From the NCBI GenBank assembly GCA_947179485.1, contig OX359246.1:22320001-22384000 (forward strand): a DNA stretch of 64,000 nucleotides. The letters run 5' to 3'. Numbering within the stretch: the first letter of the stretch is position 1; each line of letters starts with the position of its first letter. Made by a program: the position numbers and the translations under genes. This document shows positions 5,191 through 33,887 of this stretch, one piece after another. The notes beneath the pieces were generated by a model. That model worked only from the letters and a program-made list of their open reading frames with translations, ran no database searches and had not been told where the DNA came from. This DNA comes from Allacma fusca (taxonomy: Eukaryota > Arthropoda > Collembola > Symphypleona > Sminthuridae).

Positions 5191-5773
5191 TGTTATGTAT
5201 GGTATTACCCGGATATTGATGTTGTGTGGGTAATACTACTGTAGCCTAGGTTCGGGTGTTCCATCCCCTGAATTCCTGGAATCCGATGTTGTTGGAAACG
5301 CATGAATAAATGGAACTAATGAATTCTGTGTGTAGTTCGTTTTTATAATTTATTGAGCCGATTTATTGTTCCTATACTGATACAATTTACACTGAACAAT
5401 TAACATTTAACACAAATAGAATTTGAAGTCTGAATCTCTTCTTCTCATGAAATCTCCCGATTTCATGTCGCCCCGCTTGCTACCTGTGGAGATCCATCCC
5501 GGAGGGAATGGACTCTAGGTGCGACTCCTCTTGATGTTGCTTGCTTGAAGTCGAGATTAGAACTTGTACTTAATCTACGTATCTTAATCTAAATCTAATC
5601 TTATCCTATTCTTAGTTTATTGTTTATTAAATAATCTGAATCATTTCCTTTCCTTTACTTATGATTATGTTAGGTCAGCGTTTGGTCTCACGTAGCCTCT
5701 GCTTACGACCTTCTAAACTATTTGCTGACTTAGATTATGCTTATTCTACTCTATTTATAATATATCCGTAACA
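5191..5773 (-). repeat. 3' LTR of the giant retroelement
   Basis: A 583-bp direct repeat of 33305-33887; a by-eye comparison finds no difference. In sense orientation it starts TGTTACGG and ends CATAACA. It lies next to the polypurine tract and is therefore the downstream LTR. Several AATAAA polyadenylation signals occur in the sense strand, for example at 5349-5354 and 5362-5367. Confidence 0.97.
5362..5367 (-). terminator. Candidate polyadenylation signal in the 3' LTR
   Basis: AATAAA on the sense strand, with a second copy 13 nt downstream at 5349-5354. The equivalent sites in the 5' LTR are 33476-33481 and 33463-33468. Which one is used is unknown. Confidence 0.5.
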
Positions 5774-5783
5774 TTCCTCTTCT
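5774..5783 (-). other. Polypurine tract (plus-strand primer site)
   Basis: The sense strand reads AGAAGAGGAA directly against the 3' LTR, the expected place and composition for the RNase H-resistant primer. It fixes the orientation of the element. Confidence 0.85.
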
Positions 5784-8368
5784 GGGTAATTGTCGACCTC
5801 GACAATGTCATCTGTCGAAGTTCAAGTTCATGTTACTTTGTAATTATACTAATGTTTTTTATGTTACCTTACTTTGTAGCTATATGTTGGTCGTTATATT
5901 GACTTTGTAGCAAGGTCGTAATGGTATTCATGGGTATTTGTTGTTAAGGCATTTTATACAATTTATCATACATGTTCATCATCATATGTGTGTATACTTT
6001 TGTAATGCTGTACAATATTTGATGGTGTTACTGTTTGTATACTTACGTCTGATAATCAACCATTTTCATCCTTTCATCATTTGCATATACACTATTTACA
6101 TGGAATACATCGTTATTTACATCATTATTTAATTTGATTTCTATTGTTATTTATCGTATCTAAGATTAGAAACATCGTAGCAGAATTGAAAATTTTGTAC
6201 ACATGTTTTGAAAAGAATTTGTTTGTAAAACTGTCTTGACTGCTCTCCAAACATATGAGGAAAGATCAGCAAAGATTACTTGAAGGTAGATATGAAACTA
6301 TTGACTCTTGTTTCTATTCTCATTTGATTTCTAATTTTCTCTGATATTGAATACTAGTTGTTGAAACATTGTGACTACTGTCAGTTACTGCTATTATTAG
6401 GGTAGTGGCCTAATGTATTTTTAAAGGTGTATTTTAATTATTAAGCTTGTAAGGTCCCGTGAGTTTCCTTGTAAAACAATTTAACATGTCACAGACAAAT
6501 CGTTGTGGGGAAAATTTTGTCAAAAACTATGATTGCTCAATATCACTATCAACGGTTTGAAGTGACGGTCTTGAGCGCAGTAGTGTCGCTCTTAAACACA
6601 ATTATTTGAAAAACCGACGCTGAAACCTCCTGAGGTCTCTACAGAAAGTTTGAAGAATCTTTTTATTTTCGCCTGTGAAGTATTTGAGTTGTTTTTCGGT
6701 GGCTAAATTAGGAATTATGTCCTTCTCATGCACAACTGTTGGCAATTTCACCAAATGTGAAAACATCGTGCTCCATGAAGTTCTGTAAGTGGTTCTTACT
6801 ACTCCATAAGACATAAAATCATATTGTACCGTGAACTATTTCCTCAACTGAGATCTGAATGTATTTTGGCGATAATCATAAATATATATATATATACCTT
6901 GATCTGTAAAAATCCTATTTGATGAAATGTGTCGAATTCGTAAGTTAAATTTTCTGTTTAAAAAAATTCCTTTCAGAATTGTGTTTTCTTAATATAATTT
7001 TTGTCTTGGGAAACTATGGAATTTATCAAAGCTAATAAGACATTTGATCTTTTAAGATTTAAAACTGATCCTTTTTATTGGATAAACGAAGTGAATTTAA
7101 TGATTCCGTAAACCTTTTGTCATCTATGATGTGTATTCGCACAGATAGCTTCCGTCTTAGACTTTCAACTCAAAATTGTAAAAAGATGTCAACACTGTTT
7201 GCAATGTGATTCTCGTTGCCTCTTGCACCTCTCGATTCACATTGGACTAGTTTACAACTAACAATCAAATATATCCATTACTGTAATTTTCTTACTTTTT
7301 ATATTTTTATTTAAAGTTCCTCCTACCTATTCGTGGTATATTTTTGTTTATTCTTCTGGTCCCTAGATCATTCATGTAGGCCCTTGGAATAGGTGAAGGT
7401 CCTTGCTCTCAAACGACATTTGGATCTTTCTGATCGGGGCACGTTCATGTCAACTTTTATTTGAAATGCGAAACAATTTTGCAAGTAAATAATTTAGTAA
7501 AAGAACCTGTGTTACAGAAATTCTTTTGAAAGAATCTATCCTTCGGACTTCTGTTTTACTTAGTCTGTCTTTCTAGGTACCTAAAATATTAGCACGTCTA
7601 GGTAAATAGATTTTGTTGAACTGAAGTTAAAAGGTAAACTGATCCTGATCGTAGAGAACTTGCTTATACAGGGTTCTGATTTTTGCTGGAAATTTTGGTA
7701 TCCCGCTCATCCCAAACGATGAGTAGGTTAGAAATTTAATTTTATCCTTCTCATATGGAGTTAAATGACCTAATAAGTCACAAGGCATTACAATCATCAC
7801 TCATTGGCTGTTGAGTGAACAAGCCTCAAGGAATTATGATATTGCCTAAAATTTTTGTTAGAACTGAACCTTATCTTGAAACATTTTTCGTCTCGTTAAC
7901 AAATCAGTGTTTGTTTTGAAAACACAGCCTGACTTGATAGTGTTGATGTCTAATAAAAACCTAATCACTGGAATCAATGAGGTGAAAAGGAAATTGGAAA
8001 GAAAATGGATAATGAATCCATCGAGACACGAAAGATATATTGATTTGAATCACAATCTTTAGACTTTTCTTCTTTTACTCCTATTGGGGATCTGCCTCTT
8101 TAACTAAATTGAACTGCTCGTTCGTTATTTGAACTTTTATTATTTTCATTGCGTTTTTATATTTTTTTGTTGTATATGAACTTGATTTTCTGTCTTTTCT
8201 CTTCCTAACCTTATTCTACTTATAACTACTTATCCTATTATTTTGCTAATACTATCTTATAATTAATAAATATTTTTGAAAATATTTTTCCATACAATTT
8301 TTATGGTTTTGCGTATTTTTCTTCTTTATTTTCTTTCTTGCGTTGTTTCCTTCCCGGTTGGGTCGGTG
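5774..8368 (-). other. Long 3' region of the retroelement, no clear gene
   Basis: About 2.6 kb of AT-rich sequence between ORF4 and the polypurine tract. The only notable sense ORF is 6602-6814 (70 codons, no recognisable features), which I do not call. The motif ACTTTGTA recurs three times near 5835-5910 on the plus strand. A 3' region this long is unusual for Metaviridae and may hold RNA signals. Confidence 0.7.
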
Positions 8369-9115
8369 TTATAGTTGTACGGTTGCTCTGGTTGTGTGTC
8401 GGCTGGCTTGTTGTTGTGTATTGGGCCTCACAATTCTGCATCCGACTAGCTGCTCTATAGAATTTTGGACTAATGCCTGCGTGTCTGCAACATTGTCTAA
8501 TTCTCTCTCATTCGGTTTTTGTTGGTCTGTTTTTCTTTTCTTCATTCGAATTCGGTATAGTATTACTGTGAATATAAATATCACTACTGTGGTAATACAA
8601 CCGAATGAACTAATAATGACTACGGTGTAATCCGTGTCTGATGTTGGAACCTCATTGGATTTCCAATCTATTTCGTTGAATTGTTCCATCCATGGTGGTC
8701 TGCTATCCCTCAGCATCGTGGGCTGTTGATTTTGTATGAATTGGGGTTGTATAAGTTGTTGTTGGGGTTGTAGTAGAGCCATTTGTTGGTTCCTCTCCAT
8801 GATTCTCTGGGCTTCTACGTTTGGGTCGTTCGGGTCATACTGCACTACGGCTAGTTTCCCGTCATCTTTGTGGTGTAGTATGTGTACTATTGGGTCCTTT
8901 TGTGATAGCACTGATGCTGTGATAGCTCCGCTTCCGACGGTTATGGCTGGTACCATGTAATTTGCGAACCATTTTCCGACTTGAGTTCCTAGGGCTGCCA
9001 TCAGTGGTCCTTGCCATGGTTCTGGACTTGGTTGTGCTATCGGCCTGGTTTCGGAAACGTCCATTGCAATTAGAGTTATTGCAAGGCTCAAAAGAATATA
9101 CCACTTGTATTCCAT
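8369..9115 (-). CDS. ORF4: small type I membrane protein, env-like topology
   Basis: This ORF encodes 248 aa from the first ATG (9115); the frame is open further to a TTG at 9166, but ATG is the likelier start and its context (AAGGATGG) is good. Residues about 1-20 form a signal peptide (YILLSLAITLIAM). The lumenal part contains a Gly/Ala-rich amphipathic stretch near residues 50-75 and a Gln-rich stretch (about 105-130). A strong transmembrane segment (VVIISSFGCITTVVIFIF) is followed by RIRMKKRK and a tail of about 50 aa. This is the topology of a single-pass surface protein. No family was recognised, and neither a furin site nor a disulfide-rich ectodomain is visible, so it is not a standard retroviral Env. 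It is the last gene before the 3' region and is probably expressed from a spliced RNA. Confidence 0.8.
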   Translation of the reverse strand: MEYKWYILLSLAITLIAMDVSETRPIAQPSPEPWQGPLMAALGTQVGKWFANYMVPAITVGSGAITASVLSQKDPIVHILHHKDDGKLAVVQYDPNDPNVEAQRIMERNQQMALLQPQQQLIQPQFIQNQQPTMLRDSRPPWMEQFNEIDWKSNEVPTSDTDYTVVIISSFGCITTVVIFIFTVILYRIRMKKRKTDQQKPNERELDNVADTQALVQNSIEQLVGCRIVRPNTQQQASRHTTRATVQL

Positions 9116-9678: not shown

Positions 9679-12600
9679 CTAATCGTCTTCCTCGGACGGC
9701 CCTCTGAGGGTGCCTGTCTCCTCCTCTCCTTCCGCTAGTGTTCGGAATGATATGACTGCGAATCTATTCTCGGATAAAATCTCCGGGTCCCATGTTGCCC
9801 GTTCCGATCTTTCCCATAACTGATCCATTAACCTTCTGTGCTCCACAGGGTTTGTTATGGAAAGATAGCTGGATCTTTGTTGTGTCACTGGGTCTCTCCT
9901 GAGTTCTTCCTGAATAAAATCATGTCCAAGGTCTCGAAAAACTATTTCGATTCCTGTTCGACCTCTGAGGGTTCGTATGAGATTTATTATATCGGGTTCA
10001 TCTGGTCTTCCATCAATGACAACTGATCGCCATTGGGGTGTTTGGAATCGATCTATAGCGCTTGGTACCATATATATTGGTGTTATTCCTGGTCGTCTTT
10101 CATTTCTTGGTGATAAATGATATGGTTTGTAACTTGGTCCGTCTCCACGGTTGCTAATTTGCTCCCGAATCCTGTGAAAATGTTCTCTTTGCCAGATTCG
10201 TATCGTGACAAGTTCGTTTAGGTCTCTGAAAGAACCTGTTCTCCGGGGTTGTCTTAGGGTGGCTACTCCTCCTTTTAGTTTTCTAGCGTATAGGGTAGTT
10301 GGCTTTTGGCCTTCCCCTGCTAGTTTCATTGCGAATATCCAGTCTTCCCATTGTCCTAGTTCTTCTTCTATGTCGTCTATTGGATTGGGTTGACTTCTGC
10401 CGCTTTGGTTCATCGCTCCAAATTGTCGCCACTCCTGAATTGCCTCGTCCTGATGATAAAGAGTTATGAGCCTTTCGGTCATACTCGCAAATTCTTGAAA
10501 ACTTAGCATGTGTATAGGTATACTTGCTAGTTGCTGTAAAGCTTTCTCTCCACGTCCGGTGATGGCGTCTCCTCTCAGTAGGAAACTATTTATCCATATT
10601 TCTTGCTCTCGCCAGGTTGGCTGAGTTCCTATGTCAAACCACATCTGAGTAATCAATCTGCGTAGCTCGGTTCCCGTGAGCCCTTGCATTACTCCTTGAT
10701 GTTCCCGACATGTTAGGTATGTTGGTACTTGGTGATTGTCAATACCTCTTTGACCATTGAACAGTGTTGTCCAAAGTCTCGGTATCATTTCCCCTGGTGA
10801 GATGTTCATGTCTCCTGCCATCGTTTCCAGACGGGTGTTTTCCATTGGTACGTTTCTTCGACTTTGCCCGTATAGGATGAGCAGGTCTCGCTCCCTTGGG
10901 TCTAGTCTGCGATAATCTGTGGGATGGTCCATTGCATCATACAGCAATGCCCTTCTTTCCCGGATTAATTCTCCGTGATTGTTGTAGTCTATTCCTGCCT
11001 GGTGTTCGGCGTATTCTATATTTGATTCGTGAGCATCTGTTCTAGGTTCGCTTAAAGTGCTAAGCGCCCTTCGTAACTGCTCGAGTCGTAGTTGAGGTGG
11101 TTGGGTGGGTTGTTGGTGGATGTCAAGTCTCTCAATAAATGTCTCCCTGTACATTCTGTTGAGCCATCTCACTAGATTTTGCTCTGGACTGTTGGTTGAC
11201 CGGTGTGAGATATTATATGTTGGAAATCTCTCTGGGTCGATGGTAGATTTCTGGTAACAATGAGGACACATGGTGGATCTTTCCCTGGTGTCCATGTTGT
11301 TGCTGAAGTAGTTCGTTCTCCTGGAGTACTGCGCTTCTATCTGGCTGTGGCGTTCGTCTCCGGATATATCTTCCATCACTTGGTCCGGGAATCTTGGCGG
11401 TGGTGAGTGGTCCAATGGGTCATTGGCCCTTTCTACCATCTTTTTCACTTGAAGTCGTACCGGATCCAGTTGGCTGTATAACTGTGTCTTGTTTGGGTTG
11501 GTAAAGATGACCATTTCCGCATCCTCATCTTCCCAACTTGGTGCTACCATCCATCCACGGAGTCCTATGTAAAATGATACGTGAGCTAAATCAACGAATC
11601 TTACATCAGGTGAGTCGGGTTGTGCCAGTGGGTCTTCCGGTGCTGGAGCTGGTGGGTTTTTCTGGCGTTCTTCCTTAAACTCCACCTTTCGTTGACGTTG
11701 TCTAGCTCGTCTGGACTTCATTTTGTCTTCAATGGGTGGTATAGGTTGTCCCGTTATCGTGGATGGTCCGGGTGACGGTGACCTTGATCCTCGTCTGTCC
11801 CTTGTATCGTTAAATATTACAGTCCTAATGGGTGAGTATACTCTAACCCTGGGTCGTTCAATTTCTGGCTCTGGACCTCGTCGTCGTCCTCTATACTGGA
11901 ATGTACAGTTTGGAGCGTTGTCTCTTCCATACAACCTGTCCAACTCGGGTCTACTCCTTCGGATGTATTGTACCGGAATGTCCTTTTGTCTTTGCCAAGC
12001 TTCATGTGCTGCTAACTTGGTCTTTGGTCGTACGGGTGGCTTATGGCCATGTTTGAGTGGGCAGTATTCGCATCTGGTCTGCACCCACTTACTGTCTGTC
12101 TCATTGTCGGACGAACTATCTACTTGATGTTCCAATGGTGGCTTTTCTTCGTCGTCTAAGACTTCTTCCTTGATTACGTTCAATGATGTTCCGGCTCCTT
12201 CTTCTTGAGCTTCCATAGCTTGTTCCGTTGGCACAGCCGGTTCCTCTTCTGAAGCCAAAACCGGTCCTTCTGCTCCCTCTGTCCTTCGTGGGTGGCTTCT
12301 TCCGGGGTCACTCTTCCGTATTGGATCCTGGTTCCCTCCGAAGTCCATTCCGACGGACGTGCCAATATAGATTACCATTCTGAGGGTAAATCGTACAAGC
12401 TGTTGAATAATCCCTGTAGGTCTTCCTGACGATGAGTGAGCCTCCTCTTCCTCGATTCGTGCCAGCATAAGCTGTAGCTGTTGTTTTAAGAATTGTTTGC
12501 TATAACTGACGGGTGACCATGCGTTGGTCGGTCCTACGAATGCATCTCGCCTCTGCCGTTCTCTGGCTGCTCGTTCGGACGTTCGCTGGAAGAGTGGGTG

Positions 12601-15600
12601 GGTTTGTGAGACGTTGGCGTGTGCCTTTGTCTCCCATCCCTTGAGTTCTTCTTCTTCGAGATGGTCAACTCCGTTGTATACGTGTGGTATGAGCAAAACT
12701 ATCGTCCAGTTTGCTTCTGTGATTGTCGTTGCTAGTGCGAAGTGTACAACTTCACCTATTGCAATTTCCTCGGTGGGGTGAACATAGTCTTCCCCTTTTG
12801 TAATACTGTGAGGGTTGTTTTGCATCTGGCGTTGTAGGTTATTTATCTGGTCTTTTGCCAAGATACTCCGCCTGGTGCGTTTATGTATGGTTTTGAGTCC
12901 CAAAATTTGGATGACTTTGTCAATGAATTTCCCGTATTGTATTTCATATTCCTTCCAAATTTCGTATTTGGTTTGTAGTGGTAGCTGGATTGGTTTTGTT
13001 ATTAAGTCCATTGCGACTGACTGTAAAGTTCTGGTCGTTAGATGGTAACCGTCACGTATTGCTTGTGACATTAACCAAATAGCTTGCGGTAATTTCCGTT
13101 GGTCTCGAATTTTCTGTCTTCGTTCCTCTTCCTCCGAGGTGGGTTCAGGAGCATGTCGTCGCACTCTCCCGTTTTCAGATTCTTCCTCTTCCACTTCCTT
13201 GCCTAAAGCTTGATTCCATACTTTGGCTACAGAAGTTTCGTTGAGGTAATGAGCCTTCCTTTGGATATCATCTGGTAATGCTATTAAATTCGGAGATATT
13301 TCTGTTGCTGTTAGATCTTTCTTAAGAAAATCTTCTAGTTCTTTTTCCTCACTGGCGTTGACGGGCATTATCATCCAGATGGGTCGTTGGTCTGGTAGTT
13401 GGGACTCAATGAGTACCCAGTCCTGTGGTATTTTGACTGTTTTGAGTGGTTTATTCCATCTCCTGACTGCTTCTAGGATTGAGCTGGTATAGACTCCTAC
13501 TATGACCATTCCCGTGGTACACATGCCTACGGCTCCTGCTACTCCTCGTACTACTCCATTCTGCCAGAGTCGGTGCGCTGTGGCTGAGCCGAAACCTTGG
13601 TACCGTACGGCTGAATTTCCGACCGGTGGGCAATCCCGTTGGCCGTAAGGGTCATAGTGTCCGATTTCCTCTGAGTCTTCCTTGTTTTCAAAGTCTAGGC
13701 TGACATGGTCAAAGCCTCTTGGACTGGTTAGATTCTTGGTTTCCAATCGGGTCCACCACTGGTAGTGTGATGCCCGGGTTATTGGATATGGTCCGTAGTG
13801 TCCCGTCAATTCCTTTCTCAAGGTTGATTGTCCTACAGCAGATGTAATTAAACCGAACATTAATAAAAATGATAACCAACTGTTACCGAGGTAAGGTATG
13901 GGTCCTCCTCGTCTTCCTCCTCCTCCACGTCCCATTTCCGGCGTGTGAGGTGGCGTTTGAATTGATGAGGTTGACTGTCTTGGTTCCTCGTCGTCACTGA
14001 GGATGACGGTTCCGTCCTGGGGTGAATTGGCAAAATCAGCCAATGAAAGCTGGTGGTGATTAACAATTTCCGTTGTATCTGAAGTTATTGATGATTCTCG
14101 CTCTTTGGGTCTTCTCTTTGATCTGATCACCTCAAAATCCTCTGAACTACTGCTCTGTTCGTTGTGTTGTTCGGCTATAGATAGCTCGGATGTTGCAACT
14201 TCGACGTTTTGTGCTGGTGAGGGTGGCATTTCCGTTGCCATTCCTGTTGGGTTTGCAGTTTCTGGACCATTTCGCTTTTCCTGAGCGAGCAAACGCTCTA
14301 GCTCTCCGGATGTAGCTGTTGACGTTGGAATGTTCGTTGGTTCAAAATGTGCTGGAGGTAATTCTCTGGTTTGAAGGTCTATTTTTGACTCAGCACATAC
14401 CAAGTGAAAGTCGTTATCATTTCTCCACTTTATCCATTCCTGGCGGTGGCGTGCTAATTCTTTCATTAATTCTTCCTTTTGCTTTCTCGCACTGTCTGCG
14501 TTGACATTTTGTCTAGCAAGGTTGCGGATGATTTCCCCGAGATCTTTTATTCGGTTTACCATCTCCTCGTGCTTCCCTGCTTTCCTGGAGTCTTCTCCGA
14601 TTTTTAGGATGTTCGACTGCCATTTCGCCGGTGGTTGGGTTGGTGCTGTGTTCTGTCCAAATAGCTCTAAGATAGTCATCTGAGCCTCTTTCTTGACCTT
14701 CTTCTCCTTCTTGGCACGTTTCTTTGCATGATGTTCGCATTCCTGTTGTACCACTGGTCCACTGTCGGTTGCAATTACTTGTCGTACCCTTTTACATCCC
14801 TTTCTACTACAAGTTTGGATGGGTACTGTCTCTTCCTCTTCTGAGTCTGAAGAAGATTCATTGGCGGTATCTCTGTTCGCTGTTGTAGCTGTGTCCGTGG
14901 CAGTTTCCTCGCTCCATAATGTCACAGCCACTGATGGTGGAGTCACTACAGGTACTTCCACTGGTCTCTCTTTTTGAGCGATGCAAACTGCACGCTGTGG
15001 TTTAGGTGGTTCAGTACTAACCGGTATTGTTGGCGGTGGCATCTTTGTGACTGCTGTGTAACTTAAAGCTGGAGCTGCTATGGGTGTTGTTAGTATTGAC
15101 TCCCTCTCCATTCGATCCTTATAATCTTTCGCTGCTGGTGATAGGAATGGTGAAGGTGGTGGGGTTGACTCTCTCCTGCTCCTTGACCGCGCTGGACTGT
15201 CATAGCGGCTCCTTGACCTGTCGTCCTCCCGTCGCTTCTTCCTTTCTGATGACGACTCTGTCTCCCGCTTCCTGGTCCTGCTGTCCTTAGAGCTGTGTCT
15301 TTCCCTCGAACTTTCTCTTGAGCTTCTGTGGTGTCTGCTCGAACTTTCTCCGGTAGTGATGGCCCGCCCGCGGCCTCTCCCGGCTGGTACCATGTGCGCC
15401 GAGTAGGCTGCGAATCTCGGAGGTTCCCTTCGTCGGTCCTCCAAGTTCCCTCGTCTCAGATCGGGTCCATAGTTATCATCAATACGTCTACTGATTCTAT
15501 GGGCTACGTCCTCGACCTGTTCTTCATGTTGCGGTAACCATTCACTGATTTCGGGGATGTTGACCCGGGTAACTCCACAAATAGGGTCGGCTCCCATCAC

Positions 15601-23638: not shown

Positions 23639-23658
23639 TCTTTCTTGGATATCTTCAG

Positions 23659-26600
23659 TTACTGGGGGTGCGTCCCCCTCTGTGAGTTTCCCGACGGATA
23701 TGGGCTAGATTGTCTTTTGTGTGGGCAATTTCTCCTCAGGTGGCCCATCTCTCCACATCCGAAACACTTTAGGTCGGTTTGAGTGGATTCTAGCGCCAAT
23801 TGTCCCGGTATCGGTTGTGACTGCTCCTGGCGGTCTGGTTGATTTCTCCAAGAGTTGTTTCTGTCATTGCTTTGGCTGTTTCGGTCCCTGGAGTTAGTTC
23901 TACTCCTGTTGTTATTGTTATTGTACTGTTGGGGTCGCTGACCTCCTTGGTTATTGTTTGGCTGATAACCCTGGTTCTGGTAACCTTGTGGGTTGGCCTG
24001 AATTTGCTGCATGCCAGGGTTGGCGTACCCTGCATTTTGCCCTTGACCGTATCCTTGTTGAGGTACGTATCCTTGAGATGGTCCATACCCTTGGGTAGGT
24101 GCATAACCTTGAAATGGTGCATAACCTTGTTGTGGTGGGTATCCTTGATTCGGATTAAACCCTTGGGGTGGCATAAAGCCTTGAGTTTGATTAAATCCTT
24201 GGCTGTTATAGCCGTTGTAGGATTGATTGTATCCTTGGTTCATCTGTTGGTCATTCCACTGACGATTTCCCTGATTGTTAGGGTTGTTGTTGTAGTATTG
24301 TCGGTTCGGACTTTGTCTGGGTCCGAAATTTTGGTTCCGCTGCGGGTAACCTTGGTTGTTGGAGCTGTTGCCATCATTTCTGTACTGAGGCCTACTCCTG
24401 TCTTGATTATTGTAGAATCTCTCAGGTGTTGGAGATCTACCTCGGTTCCCATAATTTCTTCGGTCATCATACCCTTGGTTGTTACGTCCCCTGTCCGGGT
24501 AGTTGTTATTGTTACTGTAACCTGGGCTGGAATTCCGTGAGTTGTTGAAGTTTCCCTGACCTGGACTTCGTCCCCGTTGGTCATTAGGTCTATTCTCAGG
24601 TCTCCGATAGTCCTGTTGTTCTCTCACTGCAGCTATTTTCACTACAGTTGTTTCCGCTGGAACGGGTTTCATTCCGGAGGTTAATTTCTCCAACATTTCT
24701 TGGACTTTGGCAAATCTTGTCTCAATAGATTCCGCGCCGTCCGTCTTTCGGTCTTCATCATACTGCTTGATTCCCTCTATGAAATCTGCTACAGTCCCTG
24801 CTGTCCATCCTCGGCAGAAAACTATGTATTCGGATGTTAAACCTGCGCGTAAGAGTCTGATTTTCTCCAGTTCGGGCATAAATCTGTCGACTCTATTGAT
24901 TAGTGCTAATTTCGCATCTATGTATGCGCATGGATCTTCATCCGTATTCATCTTTCGCTTTTCCATTAGTGTACGTATCATTTGGTCGGTGATACTGTAC
25001 CTTATTAAAAATTCCTCCCTGAATTCGTCCCAGTTAATGGTGTCGTAGGGTAGTTCCTCATGTAATCTTCGTTCGGCAATCCAATTTCTGATCCAATCCC
25101 TGACGGGTGGGTCAAAGATGATCTGTACGTATTGCATCCTAGTTATGATGGTATCTCCTCCGAACCTGTTGGTTTGGAGTTCGGCTGTTGCGAAAGCTGT
25201 CTCTGGGTCATCTACACCCGGTTTGAATTCTACTTTGGGAAACATGAGGGCGGTCATGTCGTCGTCCAGATGTCTCCTTGGAATTATTCGTACTTGTTCT
25301 TGGTCTGCAACTTCCTCAATACGTATTCCCTGATTGCGATTGAGTGGTACGTATGGGTTGATGATGTTAACGTTGACCTGGTTGAAGAAATTATTTCTGT
25401 TCACAATCTGTCTATTCCTCCAGTTGTCGAAGGCTTCGAAGTCGTGAGGGTTACTTGAGTTGCTACTACTGGAGCTGGATGATGAGCTACTTCCTCCGGA
25501 ACTTCCGGGGTCACTCCTTGCTCTCTGTCTGCCTCCAATGTGTCTACCTCCTCTTGAGCCTCCTCGACCTGGATTTGACCTTTGTTGAGATGGTCGCTGA
25601 TTGTGGGAGTTATTGTTATTAGCTCCTCGTGGCTGGTTTCCTCTCCCGGACCCACTTGGTCCTGGGCCTGGTGGTCTGGGTCGGTTATTTCCAATTTGAC
25701 GGCGTGCTCGTAAGGGTTTACGTCTCTTTCTGACTTGAGTGAGTACAACTTGAGTTTCCGGACTAAGGTCTCGAAGTCGGATTCTTGGGAAGAAGTGGGT
25801 TTCTCCGGTATTATCCACAAATCGGACTTCCTCTTGTATTTCTTCGTCTCTTTCTATTGCCCTGAACGCTGCGTCGTAGGCGTCGTCTATCGAAATTCTT
25901 ATGGTAAATTGACCTGGTACTTCCGGGATAATGAAGTCCTCTTCGTCAACTCCAATAAAGATGTGCTCTGTCTCTACGCTAGACTGTGCACTGCTATGCT
26001 GACCACTCTCACGTCTCGGAGTGTCTCTCTGTATTACCTGCTCTTCTTCTTCCTCGCTGGACGTGTCACTCAAGATTTCTACGTTAGGGTCGTGAAGTAA
26101 TCTATTCAATGCCTCTTGGTGGTCGTGTTCGTTCTCGATGTTTTCCAAGAAGCCTGGTGGTACCCTTTGTCTGCGAACGCCGTTTGGTAAACTGATGTGT
26201 CGATGGTAAAGTCTAAAATTAGGTGCGATGTAGCTGGAGATCTGCCCGGGATCTAAAGATCTTCGGGTAATTATATTCCAGAAGGTAAATATCGGGTGTT
26301 CACTCAGAACAATTTCTTCGTGTTCAGCTCTTGTGGCTGCAAATGCTTCAAAGTTTGAATCCCTTGCGGGTCTGAACCTTCGTTGTATGATACCGTCCCT
26401 TCTGTTGTAATAGATCAGGCGTCTCACTTGACCTGTCCAAGTCGCTTCGTTTTCTACCCCCTGGTTTCTGAATCTGTCTTGTTTTCTCGCGATCTTAGAG
26501 TACTGACGTACTGTTATTCTGCTTGGTACTAACTCGTCTTCGGTTGCTTCGTTCTCGCTGGTGTATACTCTGCCACTTGGTCCTGTCCAAATGTTAACTC

Positions 26601-29600
26601 CGTATTGTAAGTCGTCAAGCCAACTGACTTTATCTTGACTTGTGGTTGGAGTTGTTGTTACTCGAGATGGTCCCGCTACTGCTGAATTTGGTCTGACGGG
26701 GACAGCTGGAGCTGTCGGTGTCGTTGGTCGGTTTGCTGACCTAGTTATGAACCTTCCGGTTGGTCTAGCTGGTACTGCAAAAGTCGTTGCTGCACGTGTC
26801 GTAGATGCAGGTGTTGCTGTCCGTGACCTTAAGGTGTCACCTTGGACGTACGACTCGTTGCTTCTGGATGTCTGTTCCGAAGGTGGTGGTTGTGGTGCTG
26901 TTACAAGCTCCCCACCTTCTATGATGGTCCTGTCGTTGTTGGTTGCTCGTTGCAGGATGTCTCGACCTCGTAAACTGTGGCGGTGTATACCTGTGCGTCC
27001 TATCGGTAGGCTGTTGTATAACGAGCCTCTCGGTGATTGATAGATGGTAAATCTGTCTTGGGGTCTAAATGCCTGATAGTAAGTACCTGTGTCAGAATTT
27101 CTGATGGTATTTGCGATAGTCAATGACGGATTCTGTTCCCGTAGTTGTCTCCCTACTTGCACCAATGTTCTTAAAGCTGTTTCACTAACGTCAAGTGGCG
27201 GTGCTCGCAACGCGTGCACGGGTGGGTGTACGTAGATTCGACCTCCCGGAGACTGGTAAACTCGGTGTACCAGTTGGTCGTTGTTGGTTGCCTGGGTGGA
27301 ATCTGTGTTGACGTACAGTTTTGTTGTTGCTAAATCTCTCTTAACGTTAGCCTGCGATGTACTACCAATTTGGGTGGTCTCGACCTCCTCAGTCGGTGTT
27401 TCCAAATCGTCCTGGGTAGGTTGTGGCCTAAATTGTAGGTTAGGTTGAGTTGGTCGATTCCTTGGCGTATTTTCCGTTGAAACCTGTCTATTCTGACTGG
27501 TTGGTGAGACGTGTGCTGGGTTGATTTGCTGTGTTATTTCGTGAGAGTTGCTGTGTCGGCTTGACTGTCCTCTGTCACCTGTTGCGGGTGTTGAGCGACA
27601 GGAATTACTGGACCTCGGGGTCACTCTCGGTTGTGCCGTAGAGCTCCCTGTTGGCGTCTGATTACCTGTCTGGACTGTGGGTGATGTAGTGGGTGCTCTT
27701 GGGCTACCCTTCTGTATGGCTGTCTCGCAACGGCTGTTGCTTGGTCTCTCACGTGTCGTAATCCCTTGTGGACTGATTCTGGGATTTAAGTTGCTGTTCT
27801 CCTCAGCACTATTTACCCTGTAATGTCTTCTCACCGATTTCTGGAAAAGTTGTGACCTAGGTGATGAGTAATCTACCTGGTTACTGTCCGTCACCTGGTT
27901 ACTTGGTCTGAGATGGTCACGATCGGAGTTACTCGACTTCCGATTTCGAGGGGTTGTTAGACCTGTTTGAAGTGTCGCTGAGGCTATTGCCTGGGCTATA
28001 GCCTTGTTGATTGAGCTTGAGCGGGTATTTAAGCTTTCGGGTGAAATTCTTCGTGACGTAACGGGTTGTACTGTAGGTTCGCCTGAGATGGTCCTTAGCG
28101 TAGATCTAGATGCTGGTTCTAATAAACCCGTAACCGGATTCCGTGTTACTGGTGGGTTTCGTTGTTCGTACCTAAGGTACCTGCTAATGATGTCGTCAGC
28201 ACTGGAGTCGATTACACTTTGTTGGGTGGTCCCGTTGTTATTTGAATCTTGTTCTGGACCTGGCCTACTCTCGTCGCTGACTCGTCTTTCTTGTCGTGGT
28301 TGACCAAATTCTAGATTTTCGCTAAGTCTTCCGGATTGTATCACGGTTGTGTACCTAGGTGTATCGTTGAAGAAAATCTGGCTATCCTGGTGTGCCTGGT
28401 GACTTCTCAACGACAATACCCGGTGCTCTAAAAGGTTTCGGATGACGTCTGTGGGGATGAAAATGTTGTCCCTGACGTTCCGACCGTACTCGAAGGCACG
28501 TGTACGTAACACTTCCCTTTCTTCCCTATTCGGATCTCTGTTGTTGTCCCGTCTGTGGGTGACTTCAGCTAATCTAAGGAAAAAATGTGTCCACTGGACT
28601 GTACCTGTATAAAGATTTTGAGCTAACCTGTGATACACCTCTATCAGTTGTCCTTCCAATCCTCGAACTACCAGAAAATTTTCCACTGAGTTCCGTTGGA
28701 AGCCTGCGGTGGTCACTAATTGTTGAAACGATCCCGCTGGTACTATCACACCTGTACCTGTCACTAATTGTACGAAATTTTCTTCCACTCTTTGGATGTT
28801 ATCTTGCCCTTCTCTGATCGATGGTAACTGATCCTCGACTGGGCCTTCCTGTTCTGTAGACTCAGACACCCGGCTGAGTGTCCTTTGAAAGCCTACGTCT
28901 CCTCTATTGGAGAATCCTGGAGATGGTCTTGATAGAAACCTGTCTCGTACAAGTTGTTGTATGTCTGGTTGTTGAGAAACTGTTGTATTTGACTGTGAAG
29001 CCTTACGGTGGTCACTGATGCTTAAATTTGATAACTGTTGATTTAATTGAGTAGTGACCTGGTCACGATCACTCCCTATACTGTTATTAGTACGTGGCAA
29101 TCCTGTTGGTGAGTCACCTTGTTCGCTCTGTTCAGTTGACTCGTCCGATTGAGTTATTGCTAAATTGTCCCTAAATGATGAGTGCGTACTGAGATTTCCT
29201 GGCTGGATAATCTCTGGTGTACTTGTTGCTATAGCAATTGGTCTATTGGAATCCTCCAACTCATCCAATTCCGTTGAGCTTTGCTGATTAACCTGTTGTT
29301 CTGTTTGTCCAGTAGCTTTTCTGCACATTCCTTGGCTTTGTACATCCTGTTGGGATTGTACACTCGTATCTTGAGGAATGTCTCCGTTGCCAACTGGGTT
29401 TGTCAGGTTGCTGACAACCACATTGTTGGGTGATTCATTGGTCACATCTTCCATCTCACTTTCTGGAGTTGCGAATCCTTGCTCGACTTCCTCTACGCTT
29501 GTATGATTGCTTCCAGGATCCGTGATGATTTCAAATGATGACGTGGCAGCGCTACTAGTTGGTCTTTCCTCAGGTTGATTGAATTGCGACAGGATTTCCT

Positions 29601-30225
29601 TAATCGTGGGGTCAGCATCGTGACTGACAAAAACCATGTCTCCTCTAGCATTTAGCATGAATTCGCCTGTGGTTTCAACCTCCTGGTCTTGTTGGACCTG
29701 TTGGCCCTCCAGGTTGGTTACCTCGAGGTCGCGTAATTCTCGTTGCATCGCTAGTCTATGGAGATTCTGTCCTTGCACCACCTTTGTTTTTGAAAACTTT
29801 GGTGTTTGTGCTGTCGATACTGTTGGTGTTCGTTTAGGACTGGTTGCCGTACCTGTTGCAGGTGTTGACACCGTGTCCAAGAACACATCCATGCTTTCAT
29901 CATTATTGTCAGGATTATCTCCGTGCCCCATGGCCTGCGAGCCCGATGGACTTTGTGCAGATAATGCCAGGGTTGTACTGCCGGATTCTTCCATGACTGT
30001 AGATGTCGAAGCTGAAGATGTTGAAGAGAGGTCTACACCTGCCGTTGCTGTATTAGCTTTGGCTTTCGCTGCTTTCTTCTCCTCTTTCCTACGGGCGAGG
30101 ATTTCCTCCAAGCCTGTTTCATTCTGTGGCACTGGGCCTGCAGATCGCGTAGTCCTTCGAGATGGTATTGAAGGTGCAGGTGGTGGTTCCCTTCTTGATG
30201 GATGTTGGTTCTTTTCGGGTTCCAT
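23659..30225 (-). CDS. gag: ORF1: giant Gag with capsid region, QGY-rich stretch and CCHC knuckle
   Basis: 2188 aa, ATG 30225. Residues 1 to about 1600 are mainly Ser/Thr/Gln/Asn-rich and disordered; they include three similar short motifs of the type Y-x-S-P-x-G-x-x-Y near 1000, 1065 and 1225, and a Ser run near 1590. About 1660-1843 is a typical Ty3/gypsy capsid (Retrotrans_gag-like) helical region (FREEFLIRYSITDQMI). Then comes an Asn/Arg/Gly-rich segment, a prion-like block of about a dozen QGY/QGF units (plus-strand 23990-24240), and a zinc knuckle CFGCGEMGHLRRNC (CX2CX4HX4C) about 25 residues from the end. Usual Gags of this group are 300-600 aa, so the N-terminal extension of about 1,600 aa is exceptional. 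It ends 21 nt before the pol ATG and contains the frameshift site. Confidence 0.95.
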   Translation of the reverse strand: MEPEKNQHPSRREPPPAPSIPSRRTTRSAGPVPQNETGLEEILARRKEEKKAAKAKANTATAGVDLSSTSSASTSTVMEESGSTTLALSAQSPSGSQAMGHGDNPDNNDESMDVFLDTVSTPATGTATSPKRTPTVSTAQTPKFSKTKVVQGQNLHRLAMQRELRDLEVTNLEGQQVQQDQEVETTGEFMLNARGDMVFVSHDADPTIKEILSQFNQPEERPTSSAATSSFEIITDPGSNHTSVEEVEQGFATPESEMEDVTNESPNNVVVSNLTNPVGNGDIPQDTSVQSQQDVQSQGMCRKATGQTEQQVNQQSSTELDELEDSNRPIAIATSTPEIIQPGNLSTHSSFRDNLAITQSDESTEQSEQGDSPTGLPRTNNSIGSDRDQVTTQLNQQLSNLSISDHRKASQSNTTVSQQPDIQQLVRDRFLSRPSPGFSNRGDVGFQRTLSRVSESTEQEGPVEDQLPSIREGQDNIQRVEENFVQLVTGTGVIVPAGSFQQLVTTAGFQRNSVENFLVVRGLEGQLIEVYHRLAQNLYTGTVQWTHFFLRLAEVTHRRDNNRDPNREEREVLRTRAFEYGRNVRDNIFIPTDVIRNLLEHRVLSLRSHQAHQDSQIFFNDTPRYTTVIQSGRLSENLEFGQPRQERRVSDESRPGPEQDSNNNGTTQQSVIDSSADDIISRYLRYEQRNPPVTRNPVTGLLEPASRSTLRTISGEPTVQPVTSRRISPESLNTRSSSINKAIAQAIASATLQTGLTTPRNRKSSNSDRDHLRPSNQVTDSNQVDYSSPRSQLFQKSVRRHYRVNSAEENSNLNPRISPQGITTRERPSNSRCETAIQKGSPRAPTTSPTVQTGNQTPTGSSTAQPRVTPRSSNSCRSTPATGDRGQSSRHSNSHEITQQINPAHVSPTSQNRQVSTENTPRNRPTQPNLQFRPQPTQDDLETPTEEVETTQIGSTSQANVKRDLATTKLYVNTDSTQATNNDQLVHRVYQSPGGRIYVHPPVHALRAPPLDVSETALRTLVQVGRQLREQNPSLTIANTIRNSDTGTYYQAFRPQDRFTIYQSPRGSLYNSLPIGRTGIHRHSLRGRDILQRATNNDRTIIEGGELVTAPQPPPSEQTSRSNESYVQGDTLRSRTATPASTTRAATTFAVPARPTGRFITRSANRPTTPTAPAVPVRPNSAVAGPSRVTTTPTTSQDKVSWLDDLQYGVNIWTGPSGRVYTSENEATEDELVPSRITVRQYSKIARKQDRFRNQGVENEATWTGQVRRLIYYNRRDGIIQRRFRPARDSNFEAFAATRAEHEEIVLSEHPIFTFWNIITRRSLDPGQISSYIAPNFRLYHRHISLPNGVRRQRVPPGFLENIENEHDHQEALNRLLHDPNVEILSDTSSEEEEEQVIQRDTPRRESGQHSSAQSSVETEHIFIGVDEEDFIIPEVPGQFTIRISIDDAYDAAFRAIERDEEIQEEVRFVDNTGETHFFPRIRLRDLSPETQVVLTQVRKRRKPLRARRQIGNNRPRPPGPGPSGSGRGNQPRGANNNNSHNQRPSQQRSNPGRGGSRGGRHIGGRQRARSDPGSSGGSSSSSSSSSSNSSNPHDFEAFDNWRNRQIVNRNNFFNQVNVNIINPYVPLNRNQGIRIEEVADQEQVRIIPRRHLDDDMTALMFPKVEFKPGVDDPETAFATAELQTNRFGGDTIITRMQYVQIIFDPPVRDWIRNWIAERRLHEELPYDTINWDEFREEFLIRYSITDQMIRTLMEKRKMNTDEDPCAYIDAKLALINRVDRFMPELEKIRLLRAGLTSEYIVFCRGWTAGTVADFIEGIKQYDEDRKTDGAESIETRFAKVQEMLEKLTSGMKPVPAETTVVKIAAVREQQDYRRPENRPNDQRGRSPGQGNFNNSRNSSPGYSNNNNYPDRGRNNQGYDDRRNYGNRGRSPTPERFYNNQDRSRPQYRNDGNSSNNQGYPQRNQNFGPRQSPNRQYYNNNPNNQGNRQWNDQQMNQGYNQSYNGYNSQGFNQTQGFMPPQGFNPNQGYPPQQGYAPFQGYAPTQGYGPSQGYVPQQGYGQGQNAGYANPGMQQIQANPQGYQNQGYQPNNNQGGQRPQQYNNNNNRSRTNSRDRNSQSNDRNNSWRNQPDRQEQSQPIPGQLALESTQTDLKCFGCGEMGHLRRNCPHKRQSSPYPSGNSQRGTHPQ
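23664..23692 (-). promoter_or_regulatory. Programmed -1 frameshift signal (gag to pol)
   Basis: The sense strand carries G GGA AAC in the gag frame (23692-23686), a canonical X XXY YYZ slippery heptamer of the type known from simian retrovirus gag-pro. A 7-nt spacer (TCACAGA) follows. Then comes a hairpin of five G-C pairs with a 5-nt loop (GGGGG ACGCA CCCCC, 23678-23664). A -1 slip places ribosomes in the pol frame, which is open from there to the pol ATG, and bypasses the gag stop 27 nt from the heptamer end. Confidence 0.85.
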
Positions 30226-30349
30226 ACCTGTAAACGTCCTAACTTTTTCTTGATGGGCTGAAAAATGCTAAGGCGTTTCGTAGAGTTTGGTTTTATGAAT
30301 TTGTTTTGACGGTTGTGAGAGTTCTTCTGTCAAATTCAATCCTGAAAAC

Positions 30350-30811
30350 CTTCTTAAAACTTATGCCAAATTTTAACTTAAACCGTTTCCTAAAATTTTG
30401 CCTTGTATGCCTATGCTTATGTAACCCTAATTGTTAAACTTAATTTGCCAATTGGTGATGATAACTTGGAGAGAAAAAAATTTTTCTGTGCTTATAACCT
30501 AAGTGTTCAATCCCTGAACATCCCTAACCTTAGCTGTGAATCGTCTTAAAACTTAATCCCTGTAATTTTAACGTTTCTAATGAGTACCTCCTGGTGTTAC
30601 CACCTGAATTTCCTTAAAACCTAAACTTTCTAATCTTAATTTCCTTTAAAACTTAATCCTTTTAAACCTAGACTGTCGTAAACTTAATTTCCTTAAGACT
30701 TAATGTCCTTTAAACTTAAACTTCTCTAAACTTAGTCTCCTTAACCCTATCCTCCTTAAAACTTAATGCCCTTAATCGTACTCACCTTAAAACTTAACCC
30801 TCTTAAACTTA
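30350..30811 (-). repeat. Degenerate ATTAAGTTTTAAGG array in leader
   Basis: The plus-strand core CCTTAAAACTTAAT recurs in about 15 degenerate copies over roughly 460 nt, directly upstream of gag; clear copies are near 30353, 30544, 30646, 30755 and 30785. Spacing is irregular. Function unknown. Confidence 0.7.
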
Positions 30812-30873
30812 CTTATTTGCAATGGCTAGTTGCGTCTAACTCCTTAAACTATCAGTCTTTTAGTCAATCAACA

Positions 30874-32634
30874 CTCCTCACATTCGGGCCGGTGTTGCCT
30901 AAATTCCCTAAATACTCCTGTAATGATTCCCAGAATTAATAAGGACTGTATTCCTCGCTACTAATTACCCTTCTGTCCCAAAGGATATGTTTCGCGTCCT
31001 AATTCGTACCTAAGAACTTCCTTGAACCGATCCTACCATCAGCAAGGCTTGTATCTGCTGTAGACAGCAAAAACTGAAAGCACCAGAATTTACTGAATTC
31101 CTATCCCTATAACCAACTCTCAAAAACCATGAGCCTGTGGTTTCTTATGCCAATTCTCTCTACTCTAGCAAAATCCTTCGAGAATGGCTAATCTTATGAT
31201 GCACTCAAAACCATGAGTCATCTATGGAAGAAGTAATAAATATGAAAGTCCCTATGTATGGCCATAGCTGGAAACCGCATACATAGATTTTAAAGTGAAC
31301 ATCCGTGCTTTGGAATGTCCCCTGTTATCCTATCCACTAAACCATGGACCTCCTTACTAGTAATAGTCATTGCTGTTACCTATCCGCTAGCTCGGGCACA
31401 TTACAAACATATACCTATATCGGTGCGTCAATCATAGCCTCTCCGATTACCTCTAGTAGGTCACAGGCTTATCGGTACTTTTGTCGGCACTCCATCCGAT
31501 CACCTCCGTGCTTGGAATGACTCGAACCCTACTAAACCATAAGGTCCCTCATAATCTTCCTAGCCTCTCGGATTCTACGTGTACTAAAACTTATACACAA
31601 CAATGATTCCGCTCACATTTCGGCCCTTGAATCCCTAAACTACGTAGATGAGAATTTTCTTATATGTATGCTTATGTACTATGCCAATATGTCCACGCTC
31701 AATGTACCTCGGCCCTTTGGACTAAATTTTGTTCAAGCCTTAATTAAACTGTCCTAATCACCTCGGCGCTCATATTCGGCCCTTCCGAACAAATTTTGTT
31801 CACCTTACATACTATAATCTTTAGATGGTCTGATCTACCTATGCTCTCTAACTGAGCTATATAGGTTTTGATTTGCAAAATGACTAACTGAATTCTGATA
31901 TGCTCCGTGCTCACATTCGGCCTTCCGGATTGACTTTTGAAATCCTAATATTTGCCAAAACCATGACAAATTATGTCCTAATTACCCAGCGCACAAAACG
32001 GCATTTCTGGTAGAGATGGAAAGATGGAAGAAGAAAAGAAGTTGTGTGAAAAGTTTATGATAGATCCTATTGTTACCCGTGTAAACCTACACGTCAGGTA
32101 AAGAAAGTAATTTTCAGCGAAAGGGTTTTAATTGGGTTTTGCCACCTTGCCATGGGGCTCTTAATTACGTAATTTGGAGATAAAGACTTTAAAGGCATTT
32201 GCGCTCAGTAACGGCCCTTCAAATGTACTTATACTAGAAGGAGAAAGATGTAGAGAAGGAAGAGAGTGAAAGATTATTTTCGAGTTATTTACTGAAAAGA
32301 TAGATCGTATTTTGCTTTAAACTAAGCTTGGAAAGTGAATTTTGAGAGTCTTGTAGCAATAAAAAAAAATGTCCGAATTTAATGAAAGATTTTAATTATG
32401 TTTTGGGTTCCTATCCCCTAGCCTGGGGTTTCCCAAAACTTTGAAAAGTAATTTGAAGAGTTAAAAGAATTTCAATGCTCAAAAAAACGGCCTTTTTGAA
32501 ATTAAGAACTTAAAACTTACGAAGAGAAAGATTGCTATTATACTGCGCTCAATTAACGTCGGCCCTTCAGCCGGAATAGTACCCTTTACAATACGAACAC
32601 TGTTTATGCCTCCGCTCACAACGGCACTTAAGGC
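30874..32634 (-). repeat. Ten dispersed copies of a GAAGGGCCG...TGAGC motif
   Basis: On the plus strand, GCTCA followed within about 2-12 nt by CGGCCCTTC or a close variant occurs near 30874, 31609, 31694, 31764, 31904, 31987, 32201, 32474, 32544 and 32612. The motif halves are far better kept than the sequence between the copies, which suggests a selected RNA or DNA element. Confidence 0.7.
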
Positions 32635-33267
32635 GTCTAAAAAGATAGGAGAAGACTTATTTTACTGGAAGAAGCTAATTTTGGTGAAAATTTATTATGC
32701 ACACACACCTACTATGTACTCTGAAAACCACAAAATACATATACATATATGAGCAATTTTCTAATTTAAACATATGATTTGTACCTAAACTCTGGTTAAT
32801 TACTCCTGAATATTAGCTACGCCTCGTAACTACATGACAAAATCAATATGCTCCTAAACATGAAATTCATGAACCTTAAAGAAAAATTGTCTTACCTTAT
32901 TGGACGTCCTCTTCCCTCAATTTTCCGGTTTGGAAAGAGTCCCAATTTCACTGGTCACTTAAAATAATATTTCAGGCCTAAAAAATAGTTCTTTTTCTAG
33001 TGCCGCACTAGGACTTCTGAACTGTTATTTGAATCCGCGCGTGATGATAATGGCCAAATTTTCTTTCTTGAGGTAACATTGTTGCATGTTATGACTGCCT
33101 TTCACGAGAAGTTTCGGGTGGCCCTGGAGAGAAATGAAACATTTTCTCCTTATCGAGCCCCATACTTCCATCTCATGAATTTTTGGAAACCGCGACCGTA
33201 CTTGCTACAAAGTTGGTCTTTGTTTCAGGGTCATCCGCAGGTCCCCGACCTACGGATCCTCCGGGTC

Positions 33268-33276
33268 CTTACCAAA
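33268..33276 (-). promoter_or_regulatory. Candidate major splice donor in leader
   Basis: The sense strand reads TTTG then GTAAGGAC (GT at 33272-33271), a good match to the animal donor consensus. It lies 32 nt inside the 5' LTR, where retroviruses and errantiviruses place their env donor. Likely partners are the acceptors before ORF3, ORF4 and possibly gag. Confidence 0.5.
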
Positions 33277-33304
33277 TAAACCCGAAGGCCTGGCAGAAAC
33301 ATCA

Positions 33305-33887
33305 TGTTATGTATGGTATTACCCGGATATTGATGTTGTGTGGGTAATACTACTGTAGCCTAGGTTCGGGTGTTCCATCCCCTGAATTCCTGGAATCCGA
33401 TGTTGTTGGAAACGCATGAATAAATGGAACTAATGAATTCTGTGTGTAGTTCGTTTTTATAATTTATTGAGCCGATTTATTGTTCCTATACTGATACAAT
33501 TTACACTGAACAATTAACATTTAACACAAATAGAATTTGAAGTCTGAATCTCTTCTTCTCATGAAATCTCCCGATTTCATGTCGCCCCGCTTGCTACCTG
33601 TGGAGATCCATCCCGGAGGGAATGGACTCTAGGTGCGACTCCTCTTGATGTTGCTTGCTTGAAGTCGAGATTAGAACTTGTACTTAATCTACGTATCTTA
33701 ATCTAAATCTAATCTTATCCTATTCTTAGTTTATTGTTTATTAAATAATCTGAATCATTTCCTTTCCTTTACTTATGATTATGTTAGGTCAGCGTTTGGT
33801 CTCACGTAGCCTCTGCTTACGACCTTCTAAACTATTTGCTGACTTAGATTATGCTTATTCTACTCTATTTATAATATATCCGTAACA
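33305..33887 (-). repeat. 5' LTR of the giant retroelement
   Basis: 583 bp, read as identical to 5191-5773, starting TG and ending CA with 5-bp inverted ends TGTTA/TAACA. The sequence just inside it (TGATGTTTCTGCCAGG) does not begin with TGG, so no ordinary tRNA 3'-end primer site was identified. Confidence 0.97.
33866..33873 (-). promoter_or_regulatory. Candidate TATA box in 5' LTR
   Basis: TATAAATA on the sense strand, 14 nt from the start of the LTR. This is unusually close to the edge, so the U3 would be very short if it is used. An initiator-driven, TATA-less promoter is an alternative. Confidence 0.35.

Follow-up and report, generated by a model that had tools for sequence, protein, structure and literature searches.

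Is a stretch of 28.7 kb of springtail DNA a single retrotransposon, and if so, what kind of retrotransposon is it and how recently did it move? The locus that raises this question lies in a window of 64,000 nucleotides (the whole stretch of DNA that was analysed, in which all positions below are counted) from Allacma fusca, GenBank assembly GCA_947179485.1, contig OX359246.1, positions 22,320,001 to 22,384,000 of the forward strand, on the 75.61-Mb chromosome (2). We find it very probable that window positions 5191-33887, a minus-strand long terminal repeat (LTR) element of 28,697 bp and of Ty3/gypsy type, represent a single copy from an autonomous family of giant retrotransposons that has been active recently in this species. 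A sequence-only reading made earlier, which gave neither the orientation of the element nor its family of copies, had described an intact, very young, giant Ty3/gypsy element of an animal, and each of these terms is supported by what follows.

Anatomy and integrity of the element

In sense orientation, the element runs from the 5' LTR through a leader, four open reading frames (ORF1 to ORF4) and a stretch of 2.6 kb, in which no frame starting at an ATG exceeds 70 codons, to a purine run and the 3' LTR, with an internal region of 27,531 bp between the LTRs. Its main parts are given below; pN/pS stands for the ratio of the nonsynonymous to the synonymous proportion of differences, and lengths in amino acids are abbreviated aa.

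33888..33891, no strand: target-site duplication ATAT, right, flanking the LTR
33305..33887, minus strand: 5' LTR (sense), TGTTACGG...ATAACA, 583 bp, same as the other LTR
30226..33304, minus strand: putative leader, 3079 bp, with 40 ATGs and two donor-like sites
23659..30225, minus strand: ORF1, 2188 codons, an extension of ~1700 aa followed by a Gag core and a CCHC motif, no internal stop
16448..23638, minus strand: ORF2, 2396 codons, Pol expanded by two large additional regions, no internal stop
9679..16248, minus strand: ORF3, 2189 codons, orphan, pN/pS 0.10 over 20 copies, no internal stop
8369..9115, minus strand: ORF4, 248 codons from its ATG, with a hydrophobic N-terminus, one transmembrane segment and a basic tail
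5774..5783, minus strand: polypurine tract AGAAGAGGAA, immediately ahead of the 3' LTR in sense orientation
5191..5773, minus strand: 3' LTR (sense), 583 bp
5187..5190, no strand: target-site duplication ATAT, left, flanking the LTR

A base-by-base alignment of the 5' and 3' LTRs gives 583 identical sites out of 583, with 0 mismatches, and ATAT stands on both outer sides. As such, the 583-bp identical LTRs, the perfect 4-bp target-site duplication (TSD) and the polypurine tract directly adjoining the 3' LTR had all been read correctly from the sequence. The ORFs of 2188, 2396 and 2189 codons are likewise unbroken, all on the minus strand; what had been missed is the fourth frame, of 248 codons. 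The claim of preserved catalytic residues holds as well, since the catalytic motifs DSG, YLDD, HHCC and D-D-E can be read by eye in the ORF2 translation.

The order of protease, reverse transcriptase, RNase H and integrase (PR-RT-RH-IN), the LTRs with their 4-bp TSD and polypurine tract, and a Gag with a zinc knuckle all agree with a Ty3/gypsy element. Among solved structures, the RT-RH part comes closest to Ty3 Gag-Pol (E 4e-102), and retroviral RTs follow at a wide distance.

Copies in the genome and sister families

The window copy belongs to a family, here called A, that is found in the 392,743,791 bases searched; excerpts of the genome report describe an assembly of 392.8 Mb at 80-fold HiFi coverage with a quality value (QV) of 58.7 (PMC10427803). 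An LTR search gave matches that are 95-100% alike (best 40 of 283 candidates scored), and searches with 250-aa pieces gave 119 family A places with the ORF1 piece, 112 with that of ORF2 and 115 with that of ORF3, at identity thresholds of at least 82% for ORF1 and at least 75% for ORF2 and ORF3. These counts, which are lower bounds, use 146 of 150 rows for ORF1, 137 of the 150 listed of 169 for ORF2, and 148 of the 150 listed of 151 for ORF3, the rows dropped being query fragments and a single full-length match to ORF1 that has 69% identity and 7 stops. At least 102 places carry the three ORFs collinearly, and all three frames are full length (2190/2390/2190 codons) in at least 52 of these 102, a frame with a stop inside the match being scored as not open. 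The genome contains 214 exact occurrences of a 22-base LTR end, compared with 0 in a reversed control; among the first 100 LTR ends listed, 90 make 45 pairs and 10 are unpaired, and 31 of the 45 listed pairs have a spacing of 27.9-28.9 kb. Degraded copies at 75-90% identity are also present.

Family A has two giant sister families, B and C. Family B differs from A at 46-53% identity in the ORF1 piece, 36-46% in an ORF2 insert and 52-58% in the ORF3 piece, with an RT that is 94-95% identical to that of A and pol frames of up to 2666 codons; by the thresholds used here, it occupies 17 collinear places, 2 of which have all frames open. Family C is 42-45% identical to A in ORF3 and 90% in RT, and several of its copies have pol frames of 2252 and ORF3 frames of 2200 codons; its ORF1 was not seen. 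Along pol, the synonymous differences between A and B are near saturation (pS mostly 0.5-1.0), with little amino-acid change in RT (pN 0.02-0.10) and much in the insert between RNase H and integrase (pN 0.16-0.49), as measured on 8 B loci over ORF2 aa 106-1254 at most. It should be noted that all RT places scored (best 150 of 1862 candidates) are 90-100% identical, and more distant RTs were therefore not seen.

Two further observations concern the arrangement of copies. At G000:C1 ~24780000-24830000, a tandem array holds two internal regions 28,192 bp apart that share an LTR. Moreover, pairs of copies with the same ORF2 score lie at C10:60.42/60.55 Mb (~124 kb apart) and C1:79.87/80.10 Mb (~230 kb), and are likely segmental duplications.

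Recent insertion, recombination and chromosomal distribution

The identity of the LTRs is not peculiar to the window copy. In 19 LTR pairs (the window and 18 others), only 1 mismatch was found in 11,035 sites, and since the 18 further pairs belong to the same family, chance can be excluded. LTRs taken from different copies are 0.86-5.8% divergent (median 3.8%, 171 comparisons), in a sample that consists of the best matches to the window copy and is therefore biased towards its relatives, not obviously in age. With an assumed mutation rate of ~3e-9 per generation, as in flies, the mean insertion age would be of the order of 15,000 generations. A 4-bp TSD flanks 17 of the 19 pairs (ATAT 15, ATAC 1, GTAT 1; two of the 17 read by eye), and of the two pairs without one, the first involves an LTR between two internal regions, in the C1 tandem array, and the second has unlike flanks.

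Furthermore, there is a recombination signal in ORF3. The nearest-neighbour copies change along the frame, site compatibility rises with the closeness of sites, and the fraction of incompatible sites within 20 sites is 0.388, compared with 0.477 +/- 0.005 after shuffling (0 of 500 as low). The near-identical LTR pairs, the divergence between copies and this signal together indicate recent insertions from many older, recombining lineages.

Family A is also unevenly spread. Excerpts of the genome report give chromosomes of 81.9, 75.61, 66.08, 58.81, 55.59 (X1) and 48.07 Mb (X2) (PMC10427803), and by size we take C5 and C9 to be X1 and X2. These carry 12 of 114 ORF3 places where 30.6 are expected (p 3e-5), 14 of 111 for ORF2 and 15 of 118 for ORF1 (p 4e-4 each), making the family scarcer on the X chromosomes by a factor of 2-3 relative to the autosomes. 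This scarcity could result from hemizygosity, or from transposition in the male line under paternal genome elimination, which is thought, in the same excerpts, to be ancestral to the group of A. fusca (PMC10427803).

ORF1, ORF2 and their junction

The Gag and Pol features of the first two frames are as follows.

24835..25068, minus strand: Gag core, ORF1 aa 1720-1797, a sub-threshold match to Pfam Retrotrans_gag (E 0.075)
23719..23769, minus strand: CCHC zinc knuckle, ORF1 aa 2153-2169, Pfam E 3.7e-4
23664..23692, minus strand: candidate -1 frameshift cassette, GGGAAAC, a 7-nt spacer and a GGGGG-ACGCA-CCCCC hairpin, within the 46-nt overlap
23243..23539, minus strand: protease, ORF2 aa 34-132, Pfam RVP E 8e-7
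22010..22492, minus strand: reverse transcriptase, ORF2 aa 383-543, Pfam RVT_1 E 3e-21, PDB Ty3 7q5b E 4e-102
21410..21793, minus strand: RNase H, ORF2 aa 616-743, Pfam E 1e-31 and 5e-31
19589..21298, minus strand: RNase H-integrase insert, ORF2 aa 781-1350, shared with family B at 36-46%
18344..19387, minus strand: integrase H2C2, core and p58 C-terminal domain, ORF2 aa 1418-1765, Pfam H2C2, rve and p58_C
16451..18268, minus strand: ORF2 C-terminal extension, aa 1791-2396, covered by the listed public hits in stray matches only

In ORF1, the Gag core also has weak matches to public proteins that bear a Gag (E 3e-4, in a set of 240), and a 250-aa piece of the extension ahead of it is conserved in families A and B. 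The large protein set was queried with ORF3, ORF2 and PR-RT-RH, so that the novelty of ORF1 is less well tested. Within ORF2, the rve match reaches 32.1 bits for a Pfam cut-off of 32.6, the insert has no Pfam match above cut-off, and neither the insert nor the tail has more than stray coverage among 120 listed public hits.

The frame of ORF2 is -1 relative to ORF1 and overlaps the last 46 nt of the latter. Within this overlap, GGGAAAC stands in the right phase, followed by the hairpin and then by the ORF1 stop. Canonical heptamers occur in phase 9 times per 2189 codons of ORF1, and therefore only ~0.06 would be expected in the 15-codon overlap. The pattern GGGAAAC-N7-GGGGG-N5-CCCCC has 157 exact matches genome-wide, compared with 0 in the reversed control. 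On C1, C5 and C8, whose match lists are complete, it adjoins 62 of 66 family A places, among them all 43 of the 43 whose ORF2 frame is full, as well as 14 of 14 C-type RT places. The hairpin arms are fixed by the search pattern, and the match counts thus say nothing on compensatory change; spacer and loop letters do differ between A and C where shown. The best reading of these data is that Gag-Pol would be made by -1 frameshifting in A and C, the alternative being reinitiation at the ORF2 ATG, 20 nt past the ORF1 stop.

On the same three chromosomes, 21 of the 97 cassettes listed adjoin no A, B or C place (e.g. G000:C1:3534897, 3613454, 10835127 and 43262867), some having other spacers, which suggests that they belong to decayed copies or to additional families within the lineage.

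ORF3, ORF4 and the flanks

ORF3 is under strong purifying selection. Over 20 copies pS is 0.095 and pN 0.0092, a ratio of 0.097, and in blocks of 200 aa the ratio stays at 0.03-0.21. These are Nei-Gojobori proportions, averaged over pairs that are not independent, from 20 of 22 fetched copies, after exclusion of a copy that contains a stop and of another whose length differs. No domain was found in Pfam up to E 10 and no relative in the PDB, while 7979 candidates scored from the large protein set gave none at E 0.001. ORF1, ORF2 and ORF3 found no relative among viral contigs, a weak test in which few short patterns were used. The N-terminal part of ORF3 aligns across A, B and C, with one sequence each for B and C. 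Features in ORF3 and directly before it are the following.

16249..16264, minus strand: splice-acceptor-like TTTTATCTTCAACCAG, immediately ahead of the ORF3 ATG, putative function
15169..15408, minus strand: RS-dipeptide-rich stretch, ORF3 aa 281-360, 13 RS/SR dipeptides within 80 aa (as many in 0 of 1000 shuffles)
14728..14811, minus strand: C-x4-C-x18-C-x-H-H motif, ORF3 aa 480-507, present in the compared A, B and C sequences

The Cys/His spacing across the three families is C-x4-C-x18-19-C-x-H-H, the RS stretch of family C equally holds 13 RS/SR dipeptides (0 of 1000 shuffles), and the CAG before the ORF3 ATG is kept in 20 of 20 copies. The RS-rich stretch and the Cys/His motif suggest a function in RNA handling.

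ORF4, which has its transmembrane segment at ~aa 167-185, is under selection too. Its pN/pS is 0.25 in a codon alignment, lowest in codons 51-150, a value that supersedes the 0.42 obtained by DNA alignment; 19 of 20 copies were used, the one with a changed start being dropped and one shortened to 144 codons kept. Besides the family A copies, ORF4 is present at 28 further places at 49-53%, as counted by eye.

At the inner edge of the 5' LTR, the letters from window 33304 downwards are TGATGTTTCTGCC..., identical at five other LTR junctions. Outside the element, 39-bp tandem arrays lie just beyond it at window 34904-35282, and a 21-bp tandem array of 16.2 copies with 99% matches at window 62330-62669. 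Rfam and tRNA scans of the window gave no match, and ten ORFs from the flanks gave none above cut-off in Pfam.

A proposed replication cycle

How might such an element replicate? An RNA of 28 kb would be driven by the LTR, and ORF1 would be translated into a Gag with a huge N-terminal extension. In A and C, GGGAAAC and the hairpin in the ORF1/ORF2 overlap would then cause a -1 frameshift yielding Gag-Pol. Reverse transcription and integration into ATAT-like sites would leave the 4-bp duplications, and recombination between co-packaged RNAs would shuffle the lineages. ORF3 and ORF4 would probably be expressed from spliced RNAs. ORF3 would act in RNA handling, by retaining the long unspliced RNA or exporting it, and ORF4 would be a small membrane protein. 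We propose the role of ORF3 in RNA retention or export, modelled on the CERV protein of Cer1, as a lead and not as a result. The family may be mobile at present. More tentatively still, this could be a lineage with orphan machinery for a 28-kb RNA, in which an RS/zinc-type protein of ~2200 aa (ORF3) protects or exports the unspliced RNA, an enlarged Gag packages it, ORF4 may help the element to move between cells, and a diverse, recombining pool thereby seeds genomes.

Several observations, together with the bias of the LTR sample, weigh against parts of this picture. A tRNA-type primer binding site (PBS) beside the 5' LTR is usual in Ty3/gypsy elements, if not universal. By eye, no TGG-type PBS stands next to the 5' LTR, the leader there starting with TGATG, and a search for a self-priming match of 8-12 nt found none. 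The last 432 codons of ORF2 (window 16451-17746), open in 20 of 20 copies, are almost without amino-acid constraint, at a pN/pS of 0.79 (~0.8 in both DNA and codon alignment), unlike the adjacent ORF3 with 0.10. As for the frameshift, the hairpin taken by itself is unremarkable (z -1.09), and the cassette adjoins 0 of 17 family B places. Family B would thus have a changed site or another route to Gag-Pol, and this absence is an argument against an essential role of the cassette in the lineage. The role of ORF3, read from composition and one motif, is a lead. In family B its RS stretch is weak (6 dipeptides, 58 of 1000 shuffles), and AlphaFold models of aa 1-230 and 1690-2189 have a predicted local distance difference test score (pLDDT) of 35, unusable for a fold search. 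Moreover, ORF3 has hydrophobic segments at ~aa 784-810 and 899-928, in keeping with a function at the membrane or as an envelope and at odds with one confined to the nucleus.

Alternative explanations

These same segments, and furin-like sites in ORF3, form part of the case for an endogenous, possibly infectious errantivirus-like agent, with ORF4 or part of ORF3 as its envelope and repeated entry from outside. Recent insertions of many divergent lineages, their recombination, and a membrane-type ORF4 under selection would all be in keeping with it. ATAT target sites, known from some errantiviruses, would be too. Against this, ORF3 and ORF4, which do have hydrophobic segments, match no envelope family in Pfam, ORF3 aa 801-1300 contains only 2 cysteines, and a rapid turnover of segregating insertions gives the same LTR pattern. 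We consider this explanation rather unlikely.

That ORF3 is a diverged duplicate of Gag is brought to mind by the lengths of the two proteins (2188 aa for ORF1, 2189 aa for ORF3), by a helical C-terminal part, and by aa 1890-1960, which look capsid-like by eye. However, BLAST finds no significant match between ORF1 and ORF3 (best E 4), and with a profile built from gag ORF3 scores no differently from shuffled sequence, for which reason we rejected this candidate as very unlikely.

A known giant lineage, of the planarian Burro or the plant Ogre type, residing in a springtail would explain the size and the Ty3/gypsy pol, yet the C-terminal position of the Gag core in ORF1, the separate pol ORF and the short LTRs set the element apart, as does the lack of any Pfam match to the BIR, BCL2, MATH and ankyrin domains named for Burro. 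Among the public hits listed, which include no labelled Burro sequence, RT-RH identity reaches 44.5% at most. We consider this explanation very unlikely.

Lastly, the locus might be an artefact of assembly, or nested elements that by chance form a chimera resembling one 28.7-kb unit. This explanation draws on reads from 12-20 kb fragments that do not span the whole unit and is refuted in substance by the copy family, that is, by some 100 separate collinear copies at a fixed spacing with their own flanks and TSDs in a HiFi assembly of high QV, by the ORF1-ORF2-ORF3 order repeated in family B, and by cassette, RT and ORF3 standing in line in family C (sequencing details from excerpts of PMC10427803).

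Comparison with known systems

In a tree of RTs, the window copy and three B sequences form one clade (support 100), whose stem measures 1.57 changes per site and which lies near elements of pseudoscorpions. This placement, based on 109 of 120 listed public hits (387 found), none of them clade-labelled, is weak because the program warns of long branches. A second RT search found nothing closer among 120 listed of 407 hits (7992 candidates scored), and we found no giant element in a springtail among the open-licence papers listed.

With Ty3 and the Metaviridae, the element shares TG...CA LTRs, a CCHC Gag, the PR-RT-RH-IN order and the 4-bp duplication. It differs in that Gag is hugely extended, pol has two new regions and ORF3 and ORF4 are present, and it is about five times larger than a usual Metaviridae element. 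Drosophila errantiviruses resemble it in ATAT-like targets and a third reading frame, whereas no fusion envelope was recognised in the element.

For ORF3, a model is the CERV protein of Cer1 from C. elegans, described in excerpts as an accessory ORF confined to its lineage, expressed from spliced RNA and needed for export of unspliced RNA, 517 aa long and with a possible zinc finger (PMC10309623). It is a model by description only, ORF3 having 2189 aa. ORF3 represents a family of 2189-aa proteins under strong selection, for which our searches found no relative outside the A. fusca genome, in a host with a chromosome-level genome and unusual inheritance (excerpts of PMC10427803).

According to excerpts of one review, the size that retroelements can reach is limited by the length of the transcript, the processivity of RT and packaging (PMC6431247). 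Family A makes such limits testable, with its 27.5-kb internal region, dozens of open-frame copies and very recent insertions. The same excerpts describe Burro (GYPSM1) of planarians, like our element a giant animal Ty3/gypsy element of many copies, with an internal region of up to 25 kb and a total of more than 30 kb, from which LTRs of a few kb may be deduced (PMC6431247). The internal region of 27,531 bp surpasses this figure and bears out the giant scale claimed at first. Burro has a single ORF1 of 4873 aa (4.9-5.1 kaa) with an N-terminal Gag in frame with pol, and its listed domains are BIR, BCL2, MATH and ankyrin (PMC6431247), whereas here the Gag core is C-terminal in ORF1, Pol is in a separate frame and the LTRs measure 583 bp. 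Ogre of plants is likewise large and has extra ORFs, but according to these excerpts owes its size mostly to LTRs of 1.9-6.5 kb, a range that excludes ours, around an internal region of 11-13 kb (PMC6431247). Since layout, domains and LTRs all differ, the element is Ty3/gypsy by its core, neither Burro nor Ogre by its layout, and equipped with new genes.

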